Shown: piece by piece, positions 22,766-37,768 of the stretch
Position numbering within the stretch: position 1 is the stretch's first letter
Layout: every line of letters starts with the position of its first letter
From: Scenedesmus sp. ARA3
Lineage: Eukaryota > Chlorophyta > Chlorophyceae > Sphaeropleales > Scenedesmaceae
Length of the DNA: 64,000 nucleotides
NCBI GenBank assembly: GCA_004335835.1
Contig: RWJK01001752.1
Location: 33,400-97,399, forward strand
Direction: 5' to 3'
Program-made: the position numbers and the translations under genes
The notes under the pieces: generated by a model
What the model saw: the letters and a program-made list of their open reading frames with translations, nothing else
Told to the model about the DNA's origin: nothing
The model's database searches: none

Positions 22766-24340
22766 AAGAGCGCATGTGATTTTACACGCCACACAGCACT
22801 GGCAGCGGCAGCACTGGCTCTTGCACGCTGCTTCAATTCTGTGCAGACGTGTTGGCCCTGGCAGGCTCAAGGTGCAGCAGTTTCTGGAATGTGGCATGTG
22901 GTTGCCAGCGACTGCTGTTGCAACGACGGCTGGTTTGACGCGGGCATCAGTGACAGTTGTTGGGCACATGGAATGCATACAGCCTCAGCAAACAGTAGCA
23001 GCAGGCAGCTCCGCCCTGCGCTCTGCTAGGCTGTGGTGCTGGGACATATGTGACTCCGGTGTGCTGACTCGCAACCTTCAAGATCTAGTTGTTGAAGTTC
23101 TCCTGGTCTGGCATGCATCTTCTGGGCGGGAACACAGCCTGGTGTTACAGTGCATGCCACACACCGTATGTTGCTGTCTAATATTGATGAGTGCTTGAAG
23201 CACGCGGCAAGGTAGACGCAACGCAACATGCTGCGCTGGTCAACTGAAACAAAAGAGCATCCGGAGCTGCCGTCTGGATGCAACTGATTTGGGTGCTTTC
23301 CAATGTATGCAGTAATGCTACAGTTTGCTATGGTCCTACACACAATCATGGGGCTTGGATGCTGTGAGCTGGCACAATGTTGCACAGTTCTTTGCCTTTC
23401 ATTGTGCCAGCAATGAGTGCTGTTTGTGGCAGCGCACGTATGAATGCAGTTCAGCTCGCAAGGTTGGTGGTTGCGCATGCGCTCCATGCAGGGCGTGGTG
23501 CATAACTGCGCAGCAGAATTACTCTTACACCCCACATGCCCTGCCTACACATGTTGAGTTGGTGGCAATGCGTGACAGAACAAGTTTGCTTGATGTGAAA
23601 CAATCACATGGTTGATTGCTGACACGAACTGGTGCACGTGTATGGGAGCTGCAGTGTCAACAGCAGGACCGATTTGAGCAAGTGTTGGTGATGCGTTCAG
23701 CTTGAGATGCATTCAGCAGCATTACACATCAACCCATTATCCGCCACTCGCGCTGCAGGTGTTTTACATAATCAACGGGGAGGGCTTGCTGGTTACATAT
23801 AAATAGCTCAAAAAGGCCATCAAAGTGTCTGCGGACCACAATGCATGGTTGATGGCTGGGCGGGTTGCATAAGCCCTGGCGCTGTGCAAGGTTTGCGGGT
23901 GGTTGTGGGGGCAGGGCGCGATATCTCCCGCCATCTGCATGGCTGTGTCGATTGCCGCCACAATGAGGAGGTGTGGGCCGACGTATTTTCAGCTCTAGCA
24001 CGTGCAGTGTGATACGAACAGCAACGCCTGTGAGCATCATTGACGCTTGATATGGGTGCAGGCTCGCTGCTGCTAATCATCCATATCAGTTATGGTGTGA
24101 AGTTTGCCACTTGTCCATCTGCGCAAGTCAGGCAACATGTTGAGCTTCCAACAGCAGTGCAACATGCAGGTAACAGTGTACCGCAGCTGCCTGTGTTTTC
24201 CGCAGCATGCCATAAGCTGTTGTGCGTGCAGCACGTGGTTGTGAGAGTTGCATCACAGCGAGGGTGCAGCACCAGCTAACGTTCCAACGATACCACAAAT
24301 GTTACAACAATCGACTGCACACCGAAAACACTAATAAGGG
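22766..24340. other. Intergenic between convergent genes
   Basis: About 1.6 kb lies between the 3' ends of the BNR gene (+) and the kinase-IFT57 gene (-). It has lower triplet-repeat density than the genes. I see no supported coding region. A TTACA at 24302-24306 reads TGTAA on the minus strand, 35 bases past the IFT57 stop, and is a weak polyadenylation candidate. Confidence 0.55.
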
Positions 24341-27300
24341 TCAACCCACAGCAGCTGCCCGAATCTTGGACTGCTGATCGCGCTGCCGCTGCCTGTCTGC
24401 CTGCTGCTGCTTGCACTTCACCAGCTGATGCGACAGCAGCCCAAGCCGCAGCTCCATCTGCTGCAGCTCATCCCGCAAGCTGCCAACAGCAGAGCGCTGC
24501 CGCTGCAGCAGCACAGAGCCCTGCAGCTGGTCGGTGCGCTCGGCTATCTGCTGCTGCACGTCCTCCATGCGGCTGCTGATCTGGTGCAGCTGCTGCTGCG
24601 CTGCCTGCACTGCATCCTCTAGGCCTTGTCGCTGCTGCACCACTGCCTCCAGCTGCTGCCGCGCCTGGCTGAATTGTCCTGCAATAGCACGCGACACAGT
24701 AAAGGGCATCTCACATACGACATGCAGGTGCACTGCAGTCAGGCAAGCCTGCCCTTGGCCTGCAACATGGCCTGTTTCATGATGAATTGTGCAGTGAAAG
24801 CTTGACACGCTGCAGCCTGCAGCCTCTCACCATATAAAAATACCTCAAAAGGCATGATAATCCTGGTGACTGTACAGTGCAGCAGTCCACTTCAAACTTC
24901 ATCCCGCTCACCTAGCGGCTCATCCATCTCCTGGTTTATGCGCTGCTCCACCTGCACCAGCCGCTGCATGTCTGCTGCAACGCGCTGCTGCACCCCAGGC
25001 AGAGCTGCGCCGCCCTGCAGCTGCTGCACCAGCGTGGCCAGCTGCTGCTGCAGCTGCCGCGTTGCCTGCCAGCGTGCTAGCCACTCCTGGTCCAGGCCTG
25101 CTGCTGCTGCTGCTGCCTGGCCAGGTGGTAAGTAAATGCGTGCTAGCTGCGGGGCAAGGCGCTCCGCCTCAGCCTTCCAGGCTAGTGGGTCCACCTGCCA
25201 CAGGTTCATATGGGCCATACACAGCATGACACATGTAACACATGCAAGCTGGTCAAGCTGCGGGGCATCTACAAGATAAAGGGTGCTTCCTTGCTACTGC
25301 ATGGTGACCAGCTGTGCGCATGGTCTCACCGGCTGCTACCGCTGCAGTTCTGGCTGTTGTTGGATGCACAGCGCTGCACAAACACATGCAAACAGCATTG
25401 ATGTGCACTGCATAGCGCAGATGGCAGGTCGTACCTGTGTTTTGATAACAGCAGTGTGGCCAGCAGCTGCTGGCTGTGCCTGCCTGCCTGGGCTGCCGTG
25501 CGGCCTCTCTTGCAGCTGGCCACCAATCATCCCTGCAAACCCAGCTTCATCCAAATCCTGCGAGCTGTCTGCTGCCGCAGCTGCAAGAGCTGCTGCTGTG
25601 GCTGCTATGTCTGCCTCATCCTCTGCATCATCCTGCTGCAGCTCCTCCTTACAAGGCGCTTCTTCCTGTGCTGTTCTGCTGCCAGGTTGCTTGCAGGCTA
25701 GCTGCAGCTGCCCCCACACAATGTCCGCCATGCCCTGCAGCAGCCAGCACACTGCCCTGCCGTGGCCCTGTGCAAGCTGCGCTGCTGGCACTGCATCCAC
25801 TCCTTGCAGCCCTGTGCTCTGTGCTGCTCTGCGGGCCACCTCAGCAGCAAGCATGCAGTCTTTACACAGCGGCAAGCGCCTCAGGCTGCTGCTGCTGCTG
25901 CTGTTGCCATCTGCACTGCGTGGGGCTTTCAGCTCAGCTTCAAGCAACTGAGCAGCATCCAGCTTGTTGGCCAGCCTGGCTAGCCATGCACACACCTGGC
26001 AACAAGGGCGAAGCGCACAACATCCCAAGCATTGTTAGGTGTGAGCATGCGACATAGGCTTGTGCTGCATGTGCTGCTTGCTTGGGCGCCCCACACACGC
26101 GCACCCTCCAGCAGGCTGCCTCAAATGCTGTGCTTTTGCACTTGACAGTAATATTCTGCCAATGCAACCTACATGCTCAGGTACTCACCGCTACTGCGAC
26201 ACCCATCTGCTGCTGCTGTGCCCGCTCCTCTTGCAGCACTCCTGGCAGCGCCGCACTGCCTTTGCTGCTGCCAAACGCCGCCAGAGGCTGGGCAAAGAAC
26301 AATGGGTGCAGCTGCTTGAGCAGAGCTGCTGCGCCATTTGCCGCGCTGCTGCCACTGCCAGATCGTTTTCTGCTGGGGCTTTTGCTGAGGCTGCTGCTGC
26401 TGCTTCTGCTGCCGGTGCTGCTGGCTAGCACTTGCAGTGAGTGCAGCAGCTGCTCTGACAGTAGGCAAGCATCCTCTGCAGCCGCGTCCTGCACATGCAG
26501 CCGCAAATTTTGTGAGGCACGATATGGCAGCAACAAGAGCTGGCATGCCTAGTTTGCACGGGATGCATGCGAGCAACCCATCACCCAGCGAGAAAAGCTT
26601 CTGTAGAACAACACCTGATGCCCGCCTTGTCCCCAAGCTCACCTGCTTCTGCCTGGCAGACCCACTCTGCTGCAGCTGCCGCGGTGGCTGCCCTGCTTGC
26701 TGCTGTGGCTGAGCCAGCTGCCCCGGCACAGCTGCCAGCTGCTGCAGCTGCTGCTGCACCAGCAGCACCTGCTGGTAGCACTGCTCGGCACTGGGCCGTG
26801 TGTTGGGGTCCTGTGCCAGCAGCTGCTGCACTGCCCCGCGCATTGCAGGGCTGAACCTGTCTGCTGGTAGTGGCTGGAAGTCGCCGCGCCCAATCTTCTG
26901 GAACACATCGAATAAGTTTGCGCCCTCCATCTGCACAGCGGCAAGCAGCAGTACAGCAGCATGTGCGACAAGATGCTGGCACAGCGCGTGGCTTGATCTG
27001 CAGCTGGACATGTGCTACGTGTCACCAATTGCATGCACCCCTCAGAATAGGTCCGAGGACGCGAGGCACACGCGCCCTGTGCTGTTATCTAGCAATTGTG
27101 TCACCAGGTGTGACCTGGCCTGCAGCCCTGACCTCGAAGGGCGACTTGAGCATGGCCAGCTCGTACAACAGGCAGCCCATGCTCCACATGTCACTCTTGA
27201 AGTCGTACTTGACACCCTTGACCACCTCGGGGCTGCAAAGGAAGATTGCCGCAACATCAACACCATCATCAGAGCAGCAATGCCTCACATCAGGGATAGC

Positions 27301-28877
27301 AAGCTCATCAAGTGCCCCTGCTTCATGCTCATGGTGGCATCTGGCGCTGGTGCTGCTCTGCTGTAAGTGTGCTGCCGCTACTGATGCCTCCTGCCAGCTG
27401 CGCTGCCGTTAAACTAGCGGCGCATCTCACCTGCAGTAGTAGGGCGTGCCAACCTGCAAACACCAAGAAAGACAAGCGTCAGCCAACGTGTTAAACAACA
27501 ACCGTGCATAGTGGCTGGCTGCACACAGCACACGAAAAGACATGCACAGCAACAATAACACCATCGAAGCACATCTGCAGCATCCACCTGCAGCTTACCT
27601 TGCTGGCCACATCAACTGTCTGTGGCCCCATCTTCCTGCCTAAGCCCAGGTCACCCAGCTTCAGCACGCCCGCAGCACACACCTGCAGCCCCATGAAGCA
27701 CGTCGTTGCCACCAGCCTGTTGGATAAAGCACGGCGTACATGCACATGCAAAAAGAGCCTGTTGAACGCATGCTGTGCGCTGGTCGTGCAGTTCAGTTGG
27801 CTGCTGCTGCTACCGCTGCTGGTGCTGCTGCTTAGGCTAGGCTGAAGCAGTTGCAGCAGAACCTCGTGTCATCAGTGCTGCTCAGCCCCTGCTCACCAGC
27901 ACGTTTGCTGGCTTGATGTCCCTGTGCAGGATGCGCGAGGCGTGCATGCCGCGCAGGCCGTCCAGGATCTGGCTGAAATAGAGCCATATCTCAGGCTCAT
28001 CGAAGCTGCGGCCCGCCTCGCCCATGCGCCTGATCAGGCGCTTGAGGTCTCCTGCAAGATACAGCCGGCAATGCGTATGCGCACGCTATCGGCACAGCTG
28101 CGTTGCTGCGGGATGCCGACCAGCTTTGCATGGAGGCATCTGGTGGTCGCACTACTTCTGACCATGTGCTGCTGCTCCTGCTTCTTGTACCAGCACAAGC
28201 AGCTATGCCCCTTGACATACTCGCTGCTGGTACAAATTGGTGCAGAACGCTGCTGCTGCTGTCCACAACCCCAGCGTGCACGCACCGCCTGGGGCCCACT
28301 CCGTGATGATGACCAGCTGGTCGCCATCCACAAAAGCATCAAACATGGTGATGATGTTTGGGTGGCTGAGCTGCTGCAGCAGGTGCACTTCCTTGATGCA
28401 GCGCTCCCGCTTCTTGGGCGGCATGTCTGCAATCTCAACGCTGCATACACACCGTTTGCAGCAGCATCAAGCAGGCAGGCAGACCACTGCAATTGCGGGC
28501 TGGGCGTACCACGGTGGTGATGTAGTGCATCAGAGTAGTGTGTGTATATGTTCTGGCGCTATACACATGTGATACGCATGACTGACCCAGGCAGCACGCT
28601 AGGCTACGCCACTTGCAGGAACACAGCTCTACAAGGCTGATTTCAACCACTCGTCACACGCCATGTACATATGCTAGTAGCAAGCAACGGCTCACCGTTT
28701 GATGGCCACCACTTGCCCATCAGACTTCCTGCGTCCTTTATAGACAACAGCATAGCCGCCCTTGCCTATTGCCTGCTCAACATCATAGTCAGCAAGGCCG
28801 CCAGTGACTATTGGGACTGTGCCATCCTTTCTGCTAGCCTGCTGCTGGTTAGACTGATGTTCTGATTCGTGAGCCAT
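24341..28877 (-). CDS. NEK-family protein kinase fused in frame to IFT57
   Basis: Exons (minus): 28877-28696, 28440-28286, 28051-27897, 27682-27599, 27453-27431, 27232-27133, 26930-26643, 26488-26189, 25995-25435, 25194-24912, 24678-24341; 822 residues, phases exact. Residues 33-~285 form a kinase closest to NEK6/7: Gly loop GKGGYAVV (38-45), Lys60, Glu78, HRDIKPANV (155-163), DLGLG (175-179) and VGTPYYCSPE (193-202), so all catalytic residues are present. A Gln-rich linker follows. Residues 330-822 match IFT57, the peripheral IFT-B subunit: an N-terminal CH-like part in exons 8-9 (VCAWLARL..., ...GHGRAVCWLL), the DPLAWKAEAERLAPQL motif after residue 617 and a coiled coil ending with the conserved RLGLLSHQL-type segment. 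Exon 7 ends in phase 0 at CAG, and exon 8 opens in phase 0 after a TGTGCAG acceptor. IFT57 has no in-frame ATG at its head. The product would place a NEK kinase on IFT trains. Two separate transcripts remain possible. Confidence 0.85.
27431..27453 (-). other. 23-nt micro-exon for the kinase activation-loop end
   Basis: This exon, flanked by TTTGCAG and GTGAGA, encodes VGTPYYC plus two bases of the Ser in the SPE motif. It is needed to join DLGLGRK...ASK to SPEVVKG in phase. Skipping it would remove the activation-loop Thr and break the frame, giving an on/off switch for the whole fusion protein. Confidence 0.85.
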
Positions 28878-29449: not shown

Positions 29450-30225
29450 ATGATCTTGCGGGGTCGGCCTGGACTTGCAGCACAGCAGCACCGTGGGTGG
29501 GTTGGTGTGGCTGTGCTGTTTCACCTGCCTTGAGAGCCATGCAGCTTCTCAATGTGCTTGCATTGAGAAAACATGCTGTTATGTCTCATATGTGCAGCTT
29601 GTATGGCGGATTCATGATGTTAATCACCTGACTTTGCTGCTGCTGCAGCAGGTGCTCACATGACAAGCCAGCTGTGCTTGTTGGCCAGCCAGCAACAGCA
29701 AGGAGGCAAAGAATAGTTGCTCGTTCGAACACAGCGTCTGAGCCTACCAGCACACAGCAGCCTGTACAACCCAGCAGCAGTGAAAGGATCAACCCTGGAG
29801 TAACCACGTTTGATGATGACCTGCAGCACCAGCTGGAGTTTTGTGAGTTATGCTTGCGCCAAGCGTTTGTTACACCACAAGCAGAATTTGCCACAGGTAG
29901 CATAGCACACAGCAGCGGCGCGTGCTGCCTCATGCAATGCAGTCCTTAGCTTTGCAGCCCACGCCAAGCAGTCAGCATGCAGTACAGATCCGAGTGTTGC
30001 CGGTGCACTTGAGTATTTGTTTTTCTCCGCAATTGCACTGCACGCACGCAGCCCATCACTCACAGCTTGCTGCCTGCCTTGCAGATGACTGGAAATGGGG
30101 CAGCAAAATCAGCTACGTCCGCGCTGGCCGCACAGGGCCGCCGCTGCTGCTGGTGCATGGCTTTGGTGTGGGGGCCTACCACTTTGACAGAAACATACCA
30201 GAGCTAGCACGCAACCACAAGGTGC

Positions 30226-30257
<32 letters not shown>

Positions 30258-31530
30258 GATGCAGTGATGGCAGTGCCTGACAGCAATGGTGTAGCCCAGC
30301 TGTGCTACGGCAGTTATGCAGGAAGGGACGGCGCCCTGCAGAAGTCTAGTGCATGCACGCTGCAGCTGCATAAAACCGGTGCCCTGCATGTGCTTCTTGT
30401 CCGCACTAGCAGCAGCCGCCTTTATACCTGAAATCATCATTCATTCAAAGCTTGCCCATGAGAGCAGCAGCTGTGGGCTTGGTTTACAGCTACTTCACAT
30501 CTTCACAAACCAACATCGTTTCTGAGGGCCTAGTGTTGCTCAGAACATGCTATGCCATTGTCATCCTTATCGCATGATGTGCCACCCTGTCTTTAGAGGT
30601 GTATGGCGCTTGCCAACATGCCGCTGCTGCTACTGCTGCTGCTGCCTGCTGCTGTTTGGGCAGGTGTACGCCATAGACCTGTTGGGGCAGGGCCAGAGCT
30701 GGCCCACGCAGGTGCAGTGCCAGGCCAGCGGCCCGCTCTGCTACAGCGCTGACACCTGGACGGAGCAGCTCTTCCACTTCATAGAGGAGAAGATCGGGCA
30801 GCCGGTGTACATTGCCGGCAACAGCCTAGGTGAGGCTCCTCTTTCTGTGTTTTCATGCACATCAGTCTGGCAGCAGCAGCAGTTAGACAGCACATCAGCT
30901 CACATAGCAACGGCCAGCACAGAAGCTCCTTCATCTATGTCAAATACTCGTCACCTCACATGCTGCCACAGACCGCAGACAAGCCAACCCCCCACGCTGT
31001 GTGCTGACATGACACTGTTGCTGCTGGCGGCATTGCTCTTGCCATGATGCAGGCGGCTTTCTTGCGTGCAACCTTGCAGCCAAGCACCCCGATGCAGTCA
31101 AGGGCCTGGTGCTGCTGAATGCGACACCTTTTTGGAGCAGCAGGCCGCCAGCAGGGCAGGAGGGGCTGCTGTGGAATCTGCTGCCCTCAACAGTGCCGGT
31201 GCCCAAGGTGCGGTGCGGTCATGTGTCAGCTTAGGCTAGCTAGCTGCAAGGTTCGGTGTCTGAGGCGTCTCCTGGCAGGTTAGGTGCTGCTGGCGGTGGG
31301 TTGGGTGGAAGCTGCGGCCATCGACAGTACCAGTGCCCAAGGTGTGGTGCGGCGCTGCTTCTAGCTCAAGTTCAGCCAAGCTGTCAGGCGCAAGCATACT
31401 GCTACAACTTCTGTAGTACCAATGCTATTGGGTGGTGCGACTGGCGGATTGTCCTGTGCCTGTCGTTGCAGACAGCGAGCGTGGACGCCTGCTCTTGTTG
31501 GTTGGAGTAACGGCCTGCTGCCGTGGTTGA

Positions 31531-31565
<35 letters not shown>

Positions 31566-33917
31566 GTGCAGGTGGTGAAGGCCACCATTGAGCGCTACTG
31601 GTGGGACAAGATCCGCAACCCTGAGACCATCCGGGGTCTGCTGCAGCTGGTGTATGCACGGCCCAGCACCATTGATGACTCATTGCTGGAGCGTATTGTG
31701 CAGGTGGGCAGGTTATTACGGCAGCAACAGCAGCCGCCGCAGCAGCAGCATGTGTGCAGCTGCTTAGGCAGCGACAGCAGCACGAGCACTTGTGGTGAAT
31801 GACTCCCTGCTGGAGCGCATCGTGCAGTTGGGGGTGTCGTGGCAGCAGCGGCGGCGGCGGCATGGCTGCAGCTGCTTTGGCAGCTAGAGGACAGGACCCT
31901 GCCCATGAGCAACTGCATGGTGCAGCCTGCGTCTCAGTGGATCGCAGCACGTGATGGTAGCTTGAAAACACTGGCCAACTGTTGTGTGCCCAAGGACCAT
32001 TCACGCACCCTCATGAACAAGTGTCTGCGCCTGTTGCGAACATACTGCGCTGCAGGCCACGCAGCACCCCGAGGCGCTGGACGCGTTCACCAGCATTGTG
32101 CTGGCGCCAAAGACGCAGCTCAGCTTCGACGAGATGCTGGCGGCTGTCAGCTGCCCCGTGTGCCTCGCCTACGGTGCGTGCGGCTTGCTATTTACATGTG
32201 TATCTGCAGAAATCATAGGGAGTGTTCACTGAGGTGTGGTGGCAGTACCGCTGTGGGTGATGCTGGCGGTAGTCAGCTGCCCCGCGTGCCTGGCCTACGG
32301 TGCGTGTGGCATGGCACACAGCGCACTGATGGACAGCAACATCTAGGTGTTAGTGCAGTACCTGGCTCGTTCTTGTGGCTGCTATGCCTGCATGCCAACC
32401 AGCAGTACCAGCATCCGCCTGATGCAGAGCCACATGCCTGCCCATTCCACCACAGCCAACCATCGCAACAACAGTTGCTGCCCCCGCAGGCCGTGGCGAC
32501 CCCTGGGTGGTGCTTCTGCACTTGCTGCTGCGCCACCTCACCTGCTCGTGCGCCACTTGCTGCCGCTGCTGCATCGCTGCACTTGCCCGCTGACTGAGCA
32601 CTTGCTGCTGCGCTGCTGCTGCCCTGCAGGCCGCGATGACCCCTGGGTGGTGCCGCTGTGGGGCCAGCGCCTGAAGCGCACACTGCCCCAGGCGCAGTAC
32701 CTGGAGCTGGCACCTGCAGGGCACTGCCCACACCATGAGGCACCCACAGGTAGGCCAGTAGAGCTGCAGAGGCAGAATGAATTGCGTTAGCAGCAGCGGC
32801 ATAGCACCTGGAGCTGGCACCTGCAGAGCGCTGCCTTGGATCACGAGGCGGCCACAGGCAGGGCGGAGGGGCTGCAGAGGCAGTCTGAGTGGGGTTAGTA
32901 CCAGCAGCGCAGCAGCAGCATAGTACTTGGAGCTGGCGCCTGCAGGGCACTGCCCACACCACGAGGCACCCACAGGTAGGCAGTACGGCTGTAGTAGGCA
33001 CACTGTTGTAGGCAGCAGCTGCTGCAGCAGTAGCCATTCATCATTGGACGTCACTGAACAACGGCGTCAATGCTTTCGTGCTGTGGGTTGGTGAGACACT
33101 GCGTGCTTGTTATGCTGTCATCGAGTTCTCTCAGCTGACAAGTGCTGCTGCTGCTGCTGCTGCGTGGCGTCTGCTGCTGCAGCCATCAACAGCATCATCG
33201 GCAGCTGGGTGTCAGCAGTGGAGGCAGGCCGCCACCAGGAGCTGGAGCTGACACAGGTGCGGCGACAAGCTGCTGTTGCTGCTGCACCCTGCTGGAAGCG
33301 ATGTGCCAGGCTGCTGCCAGCTGGCGTTTCTCAGGACATGCCACTGCTTGCTTTACACGCCATGCTATGTAAAAGGTATTCTGCCGAACTCCCATGTGTC
33401 AAGCAAGATTGTGAGCGCTTGGCTACTGCTTGAGGCCAACACCATGCTGTTGTTTGTTCACTTCTTCCATTGCAGCTGCCGCAGGTTGGTGCCAGCACCA
33501 GCATCCGTTTCCGTGCCTGCTGCTGCCGGAGGCCATGCTGCTGTTTATTCCACTTTGTTTCATTTGTGTCCCACAGGTTGGCGCCGCCACAAGCTTTGAG
33601 AAGGCTGCCGGCCGGCTATTTATTTCTGGGTGCTGCTCGACGCCATAGCATGCTGTGTGTGTGCTGCGTGTACCGCTGCAAAAAAAACAGTTGTGCAGTT
33701 GAACTGCGTGTGTATTTCTATATGTGTTCCGCAGGTTGGCGCCGCCACAAGCTATGAAGAGGCTGACGGTCAGGTGGTGACTGTGTCCTGCCTTGAGGGG
33801 GCCCCCCGCAACGTGTTTGAGAAGTGGGACAACGCAAAGTGGCAGCTCAACAAGGCCTGGCAGCAGGCGCTGCAGCGGGCAGCTGGCACACGCAGCAGCG
33901 GAGCGACGAGTGCATAA
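29450..33917 (+). CDS. PPH: Pheophytinase-like chloroplast alpha/beta hydrolase
   Basis: Exons: 29450-29496, 29652-29896 (or from 29649), 30085-30221, 30664-30829, 31053-31207, 31572-31703, 32056-32173, 32630-32749, 33183-33256, 33735-33917; phases close to 458 residues. The first exon is inferred from phase only. The fold is alpha/beta hydrolase: LLLVHGFGVG (oxyanion), AIDLLGQG, the nucleophile elbow VYIAGNSLGG with Ser197, NATPFW, the acid loop YGRDDPWV and PAGHCPHHEAP with the catalytic His. These follow land-plant pheophytinase closely; PPH removes phytol from pheophytin during chlorophyll breakdown in plastids. The N-terminal ~95 residues are Arg/Ser/Gln-rich, as expected of a transit peptide. 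After the hydrolase there is an extra ~85-residue C-terminal part rich in Trp/Lys/Gln, absent from the plant enzyme as I know it. The relative CLD1 is less likely because of the PFW and GHCPH motifs. Confidence 0.88.
31285..31830 (+). repeat. PPH: Echoes of pheophytinase exons 5 and 6
   Basis: The end of exon 5 (TCAACAGTGCCGGTGCCCAAGGTGCGG, 31189-31213) reappears diverged near 31319-31348, again with a GTGTGG donor-like end. The end of exon 6 (GACTCATTGCTGGAGCGTAT, 31677-31703) reappears at 31800-31830. Both echoes are intronic. Confidence 0.7.
32240..33010 (+). repeat. PPH: Echoes of pheophytinase exons 7 and 8
   Basis: The end of exon 7 (GTCAGCTGCCCCGTGTGCCT, 32148-32176) is repeated at 32272-32305 with its donor. 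The acceptor and start of exon 8 (GCAGGCCG..GACCCCTGGGTGGTGC) has an advance copy at 32488-32520. The end of exon 8, coding LELAPAGHCPHHEAPT, is repeated twice downstream, at about 32806-32862 and 32926-32980. The last copy is nearly identical and keeps a GTAGG donor. Confidence 0.85.
33472..33775 (+). repeat. PPH: Three candidate acceptors for the last pheophytinase exon
   Basis: The start of exon 10, GCAGGTTGGCGCCGCCACAA (33731-33750), is preceded by copies at 33477-33500 (diverged) and 33573-33600 (ACAGGTTGGCGCCGCCACAA). The middle copy keeps the acceptor and about seven codons. Splicing to it would give a different, shorter C-terminus. Confidence 0.8.
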
Positions 33918-37622: not shown

Positions 37623-37768
37623 NNNNNNNNNNNNNNNNNNNNNNNNNNNNNNNNNNNNNNNNNNNNNNNNNNNNNNNNNNNNNNNNNNNNNNNNNNNNNN
37701 NNNNNNNNNNNNNNNNNNNNNNNNNNNNNNNNNNNNNNNNNNNNNNNNNNNNNNNNNNNNNNNNNNNN

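Follow-up and report, generated by a model that had tools for sequence, protein, structure and literature searches.

In many organisms NEK kinases have been tied to cilia, and no clear physical link between these kinases and the transport machinery is known. IFT57 is a subunit of IFT-B, a complex of intraflagellar transport (IFT), and NEK9-induced dimerization activates NEK7, as the title of structure entry 5de2 states. The window analyzed here, a 64,000-nucleotide stretch of contig RWJK01001752.1 from the green alga Scenedesmus sp. ARA3 (positions 33,400–97,399), holds a gene in which a NEK6/7-type kinase is followed by an IFT57-type tail. Kinase and tail are a single gene, as the first-pass annotation had proposed. 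The wider interpretation, that a NEK6/7-subfamily kinase acquired an IFT57-derived C-terminal tail in an old fusion and may use it for dimerization and docking, is probably correct. The parts are known, and both domains are already tagged in databases, but the joined kinase–IFT57 design is apparently undescribed. The accessible portions of the literature that pairs IFT57 or IFT with NEK or kinase terms contain no description of a NEK with an IFT57 tail, and IFT57 on a kinase does not appear in the available parts of PMC3019232, PMC2031824, PMC3471859, PMC8449880, PMC8175508, or PMC3499766. In the Phytophthora infestans kinome table, IFT57 is not among the accessory domains (PMC3019232).

The gene lies on the minus strand at 28877–24341, where 11 exons close to a 2469-nucleotide frame of 822 codons plus a stop, with all 10 introns of the GT–AG type (Table 1). 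Both Pfam domains are present in the product. The junction of exons 7 and 8 (26643/26488) is phase 0 to phase 0 across a 154-nucleotide intron, and the earlier observation that the IFT57 head has no start is borne out: the frame is closed by a stop at 26551, no in-frame ATG lies between that stop and exon 8, and the first Met of exon 8 is codon 95. The IFT57 part is thus without a start of its own. No stop occurs in the kinase frame across exon 7 and intron 7, and unspliced read-on from exon 7 first meets a stop at 26171, out of frame with IFT57. This analysis of frame, start, and stop around intron 7 leads us to reject two tandem genes. An assembly gap at the join is ruled out as well: the window has a single run of N (37623–37768, 146 bases), which is distant from the gene.

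It is very improbable that two adjacent genes have been read as one. Such an error might be suspected because splicing at the join differs in the deposited T. obliquus models and because no transcript of this alga was seen. Besides the open kinase frame and the missing start, intron 7 holds no TGTAA, which we take to be the green-algal poly(A) signal and which also occurs twice inside exon 9; the position of intron 7 is apparently common to a fused protein of another lineage; and fused proteins with transcript-derived names or sources are found elsewhere.

The join was sought among the proteins of relatives and found there. It is annotated within one protein in two other T. obliquus assemblies (P0001 and P0002; P numbers designate proteins of our comparison set) and in Scenedesmus NREL 46B-D3 (P0003), and residues 400–822 of the window protein are 98% identical to the T. 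obliquus counterpart, which places the source of the window in T. obliquus or very near it. P0004, a JGI record, is also fused (65% identical over 44% of the query) and has 54 and 67 extra residues exactly at introns 7 and 8. These residues resemble introns that were translated by in-frame read-through, so that another lineage, judged by eye, apparently has the join in the same position. In P0001 and P0002, CYQQ is spliced directly to PLAAFG (window 26768–26288, minus strand), dropping the linker and the start of the calponin-homology (CH)-like part. P0001 is without window residues 288–396, a stretch of 109 residues that includes the segment LHPLFFA; this segment is kept as LHPLLFA in P0003 and LHPLFFA in P0004, and is also kept in P0045 and P0049. 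Because relatives keep the 109 missing residues, the deposited T. obliquus annotations look wrong at the join. The 11-exon model is better than the deposited ones.

The kinase domain is recognized by Pfam (Pkinase) at residues 31–287 with E 2.6e-65. Against PDB sequences the kinase part scores about 250 bits with NEK7, versus 164 with NEK1 and 162 with NEK2; the label of the top row, 6npy_B, combines PKR with another Ser/Thr kinase. When two further NEK-like genes from this genome serve as the root of the tree, the window kinase falls inside the NEK6/7 clade. By these sequence comparisons it belongs to the NEK6/7 subfamily, in agreement with its first assignment. The catalytic residues are intact (the VAIK lysine, HRD, DLG, and the GTPYYCSPE segment), and the Ser of ASKVGTP is aligned with the activation-loop serine of NEK7, presumably S195; a solved NEK7 S195D mutant is present among the Foldseek matches listed. 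Animal NEK6 and NEK7 thus share with the window protein the subfamily clade and the Ser before VGTP, and NEK7 is the closest solved kinase. They differ in length: the 11 animal members examined are 290–352 residues in all, whereas the window protein has 535 residues past the Pfam kinase match. The short animal-type layout, with little beyond the kinase, is not that of the 822-residue protein.

A Met in the kinase N-lobe (28440–28286, minus strand) stands in place of the conserved Tyr of the motif HPNxIxY, a residue that may be the autoinhibitory Tyr97 of NEK7. Met is also found at this position in the green fused proteins P0003, P0049, and P0131, and Cys in P0045. The 38 fused proteins of our set, defined below, have Tyr in 21 cases, Met in seven, Cys in two, and Leu in two, with the position not found in six, whereas Tyr, in the form HPN(V/I)IxY, is present in all 11 animal NEK6/7 proteins examined. 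If the position does correspond to Tyr97, the green kinases may be without that brake.

The Pfam IFT57 family matches residues 486–796 with E 1.4e-38 and 133 bits, against a cut-off of 40. The tail had been called a complete IFT57, which overstates the match: only Pfam positions 79–360 of 360 are covered, positions 1–78 are unmatched, and it takes a profile built from other fused tails to extend into the first half of the CH-like part. The Pfam match begins at profile position 1 in P0122, P0098, and P0103. Among PDB sequences the tail aligns over 300 residues with the IFT57 chains 8ruy_M and 8bd7_M (E 2.4e-17 and 5.8e-17), and two weak prefoldin coil matches rank behind them. A motif centered on Trp precedes the coil (VDPLAWKAE in the window, VDAGEWAAE in P0049, IDPDAWRAE in P0122), and a motif of the D-x-x-x-W type is found ahead of the coil in seven of the 10 fused proteins looked at. 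The CH-like part and the W motif suggest, at the level of sequence, that a docking surface of IFT57 has been kept. In sum, the tail shares with IFT57 the CH-like part, the VDPxxW motif, and the coiled coil, and differs from it in being joined to a kinase, in its unmatched first 78 profile positions, and in its position in the best tree, next to the tails of other fused proteins.

Predicted models of P0001 and P0049 have mean predicted local distance difference test (pLDDT) values of 77.2 and 80.8, and both comprise a confident kinase and long helices for the coil. In the P0049 model a helical block with pLDDT 87–96 occupies residues 311–400, the site of the CH-like part. Foldseek rows 1–19 for P0001 and 1–18 for P0049 are NEK7 structures.

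The fused protein might be taken for the IFT57 of this alga, a reading that fails because the genome has another. An IFT57-family search of the whole genome gave eight matches in two places, the window gene and about 49.4–51.9 kb of contig C1148. The gene on C1148 is an ordinary IFT57; it shares 99% identity with P0005 of T. obliquus, a protein that falls with canonical IFT57 in the tail tree. By sequence the fused protein is thus a diverged paralogue of the IFT57 of this genome rather than its orthologue. With a separate IFT57 on C1148, the fused protein as sole IFT57 is ruled out, and there is no need for the core IFT-B subunit to have a kinase attached. None of the 85 NEK-part matches listed lies on C1148. 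Other kinase matches in the genome include L013, presumably a MAP3K-like frame, and the NEK-like L019 and L020 at about 40% identity. A second, tail-less NEK6/7 gene was not seen among the matches listed, where identity outside the window contig is at most 57%. The same coexistence recurs elsewhere: Scenedesmus NREL 46B-D3 and the genus Phytophthora have both the fused form and a canonical IFT57, and the alga behind P0045 and P0008 may have both, these two being assigned to one organism by name style only. As for the earlier picture of a lineage in which flagella are often lost or rare, the genome retains IFT38, IFT46, and radial-spoke genes.

The fusion is not special to this alga: oomycete, cryptophyte, haptophyte, and streptophyte proteins share its architecture. 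The protein searches scored about 8,000 candidates that shared most words and were of certain lengths only, so that longer fused proteins, for example from Chlamydomonas, would be missed. Among the best 120 of 5562 kinase matches, 32 carry a precomputed IFT57 domain. Among the matches listed, both Pfam families occur in Phytophthora, Nothophytophthora, Saprolegnia, Aphanomyces, Hanusia phi, Chrysochromulina tobinii, and a Chlat1 record that we take to be Chlorokybus; tailed kinases are thus found in a streptophyte alga, oomycetes, a cryptophyte, and a haptophyte as well as in Scenedesmus. When 10 other fused proteins were rescanned with Pfam, all 10 gave IFT57 at E < 1e-3 and nine passed the curated cut-off, the Chrysochromulina match falling under it (36.9 bits versus 40). 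The Pfam content of deposited fused proteins was otherwise precomputed; P0003 and P0122 were rescanned. Database names report the kinase or neither part for proteins with both kinase and IFT57 Pfam content: "NimA-related protein kinase 6" (Scenedesmus NREL 46B-D3), "Serine/threonine-protein kinase Nek6" (Phytophthora ramorum), and "Nek7" (Aphanomyces cochlioides) name the kinase only, and "hypothetical protein OEZ85_010915" (T. obliquus) names neither.

Within a set of 162 sequences, a canonical-IFT57 profile matches 38 of the 123 kinase-bearing proteins at E < 1e-3, the window protein included; the weakest, P0084, P0108, and P0092, score 15–22 bits. Five of the 38 (P0049, P0078, P0093, P0096, and P0098) have transcript-derived names or sources. 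The catalytic loop and DLG patterns are present in 37 of the 38, the exception, P0004, being a fragment. Of the 85 unmatched proteins, 65 are shorter than 420 residues and many are metagenome pieces, so that absence of a tail there means little. The other 20 of the 123 are at least 420 residues long, and six of these match the fused-tail profile weakly. These six (P0055, P0060, P0065, P0067, P0068, and P0077) are long kinases near Ectocarpus and Heterosigma rows, with weak matches in the CH part (E 5.5e-7 to 7e-4), and possibly carry diverged tails.

It is scarcely credible that the gene is a functionless, decaying duplicate. The tail is divergent and its letter make-up biased, as such a relic might be, but the catalytic motifs are intact, the frame is open through 11 exons, the kinase is 94% identical to that of Scenedesmus (217 of 231 residues), and the architecture is found across eukaryotes. 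The tail does evolve fast: the coil is identical to its Scenedesmus counterpart at 117 of 163 positions.

Whether the fused tails have one origin was examined with trees of the tail and of the kinase. In a wide tail tree of 26 of the 38 fused and 28 of the 39 canonical proteins, one branch separates all fused from all canonical tails with support 40. After removal of a further six fused proteins (either short or on long branches, including Chlorokybus and Saprolegnia) and seven canonical ones, one branch separates 20 fused from 21 canonical tails with bootstrap 67 and approximate likelihood-ratio test (aLRT) 99. The branch that parts the two groups is weak. Two kinase trees were built, one of 119 rows and a rooted one of 26 fused, nine animal or fungal, 14 other, and two outgroup rows; in the latter the outgroup branches are long, and long branches meet at the outgroup. 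The rooted tree has six deep NEK6/7 clades, which we name after their named members: green (support 90/99), stramenopile (90/86), animal/fungal together with Cymbomonas and a Pyrami... record (100/99), cryptophyte, haptophyte, and an unnamed group around P0062. Tailed members occur in five of the six and are lacking in the animal/fungal clade, whose members other than the 11 animals are also short (fungal P0115, 327 residues; P0157, 296; P0146, 334).

One fusion before the divergence of green algae, stramenopiles, cryptophytes, and haptophytes is likely from these comparisons. The kinase–IFT57 design looks old, to judge from its distribution, and the animal versions examined are without the tail. 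The most parsimonious account is either a single ancient fusion followed by loss or an early division of NEK6/7 into tailed and tail-less forms.

Fusion of a kinase and an IFT57 duplicate more than once, separately in green algae among others, is distinctly unlikely by comparison with a single event, although the tails are not unanimous. In approximately unbiased (AU) tests, a tree that joins green fused and green canonical tails as one clade is not rejected (p 0.395, at a cost of 2.8 log units), nor is one that joins the green fused tails with Sphaeropleales-type canonicals only (p 0.294). When sequences grouping with green algae were left out of the competing profiles, two of the five green fused tails preferred the canonical profile (112 versus 87 bits for the window, 78 versus 68 for P0045). 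The other three preferred the fused profile, and the green canonical IFT57s preferred the canonical profile in six of six cases. The corresponding oomycete arrangement, a clade uniting the oomycete fused tails with the single Phytophthora canonical row, is rejected (p 0.008). In the best trees every fused tail of the set falls on one side, and the partners, their order, and the NEK subfamily are alike in what we take to be four supergroups.

Besides the AU result, the two dissenting profile scores, and the missing T. obliquus transcript, several observations qualify the case for an old, docking fusion. P0157 (Cymbomonas) and P0146 (Pyrami...), which look like prasinophyte green algae, are tail-less and group with animal NEK6/7, not with the tailed green kinases, so that NEK6/7 may have duplicated early into tailed and tail-less forms. 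A tree that unites all fused kinases in a single clade fails the AU test (p 1.5e-63), a result that is uninformative in that the "other" rows of that tree include fragments of uncertain tail status. P0084, one of the 38, is not matched by the fused-tail profile. Stricter patterns recover fewer of the 38, VAIK-type 25 and Ser-x-VGTP..PE 34, the misses including truncated or Thr-bearing proteins. The 50 Foldseek matches listed for each model are kinases throughout and bear on the kinase fold only. IFT20, the presumed coil partner, has no match in the genome, a result that is uninformative in that controls are equally without a match.

In the mechanism that we propose, the long coiled coil would dimerize the kinase, either with itself or with an IFT20-like partner. 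By analogy with NEK7, dimerization in cis might favor activation-loop phosphorylation without NEK9. The CH/coil tail could bring the kinase to the basal body or to IFT-B, and IFT or axonemal proteins there could be its substrates while flagella are assembled or disassembled. Alternatively, the tail might be a mere dimerization device of a cytoplasmic or mitotic NEK6/7 kinase whose link to IFT is gone. The fast evolution of the tail and its divergent CH part are compatible with this explanation, a separate IFT57 can serve IFT, and the opening lines of abstracts on animal NEK6/7 deal mainly with the cell cycle. It is nonetheless unlikely: the CH-like part, and not the coil alone, is kept in several lineages (P0122, P0098, and P0103), as is the D-x-x-x-W type motif in most of the fused proteins looked at. 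One study counts six NEKs in P. infestans versus three in a non-flagellate downy mildew, with the tailed ones unspecified (PMC3019232). The flagellar link of the fused kinase, drawn from this count and from the retained IFT38, IFT46, and radial-spoke genes, is indirect.

Table 1. Exons of the fused kinase–IFT57 gene, the intron at the join, and a downstream element (window positions)
Feature	Position	Strand	Content
Exon 1	28696..28877	-	start codon, kinase N-lobe with VAIK lysine; N-terminus same in P0001 and P0002
Exon 2	28286..28440	-	kinase
Exon 3	27897..28051	-	kinase; HRDIKPANV catalytic loop
Exon 4	27599..27682	-	kinase; DLG and activation loop, Ser aligned with NEK7 activation-loop serine
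Exon 5, 23 nt	27431..27453	-	VGTPYY
Exon 6	27133..27232	-	kinase C-lobe, SPE
Exon 7	26643..26930	-	kinase end and Gln-rich linker
Intron 7, 154 nt	26489..26642	-	separates kinase part from IFT57 part
Exon 8	26189..26488	-	linker and first part of CH-like domain (LHPLFFA)
Exon 9	25435..25995	-	remaining CH-like domain and acidic linker
Exon 10	24912..25194	-	VDPLAWKAE motif and coiled-coil start
Exon 11	24341..24678	-	coiled coil and stop codon
TGTAA, candidate poly(A) signal	24302..24306	-	35 nt past stop

Upstream of the fused gene and divergent from it, open frames at 29901–31047 (plus strand) include the stretch LLLVHGFGVGAYHFDRNIPELA, which we take to be an alpha/beta-hydrolase-like motif.

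A conserved NEK6/7 kinase with an IFT57-derived tail provides, at the level of sequence, a link between NEK kinases and the transport machinery. The alga has not replaced its own IFT57 but keeps a second, divergent copy on a kinase. The finding makes testable predictions about where the kinase is located, what dimerizes it, and whether it is confined to organisms that retain flagella. It also offers a possible origin for the short NEK6 and NEK7 of animals. We suggest tentatively, and with more doubt than conviction, that the ancestral NEK6/7 was a ciliary kinase with an IFT57-derived tail, and that animal NEK6 and NEK7 may be its stripped descendants, or a tail-less sister copy, which would now need NEK9 in trans for the dimerization and targeting that the tail once supplied in cis.

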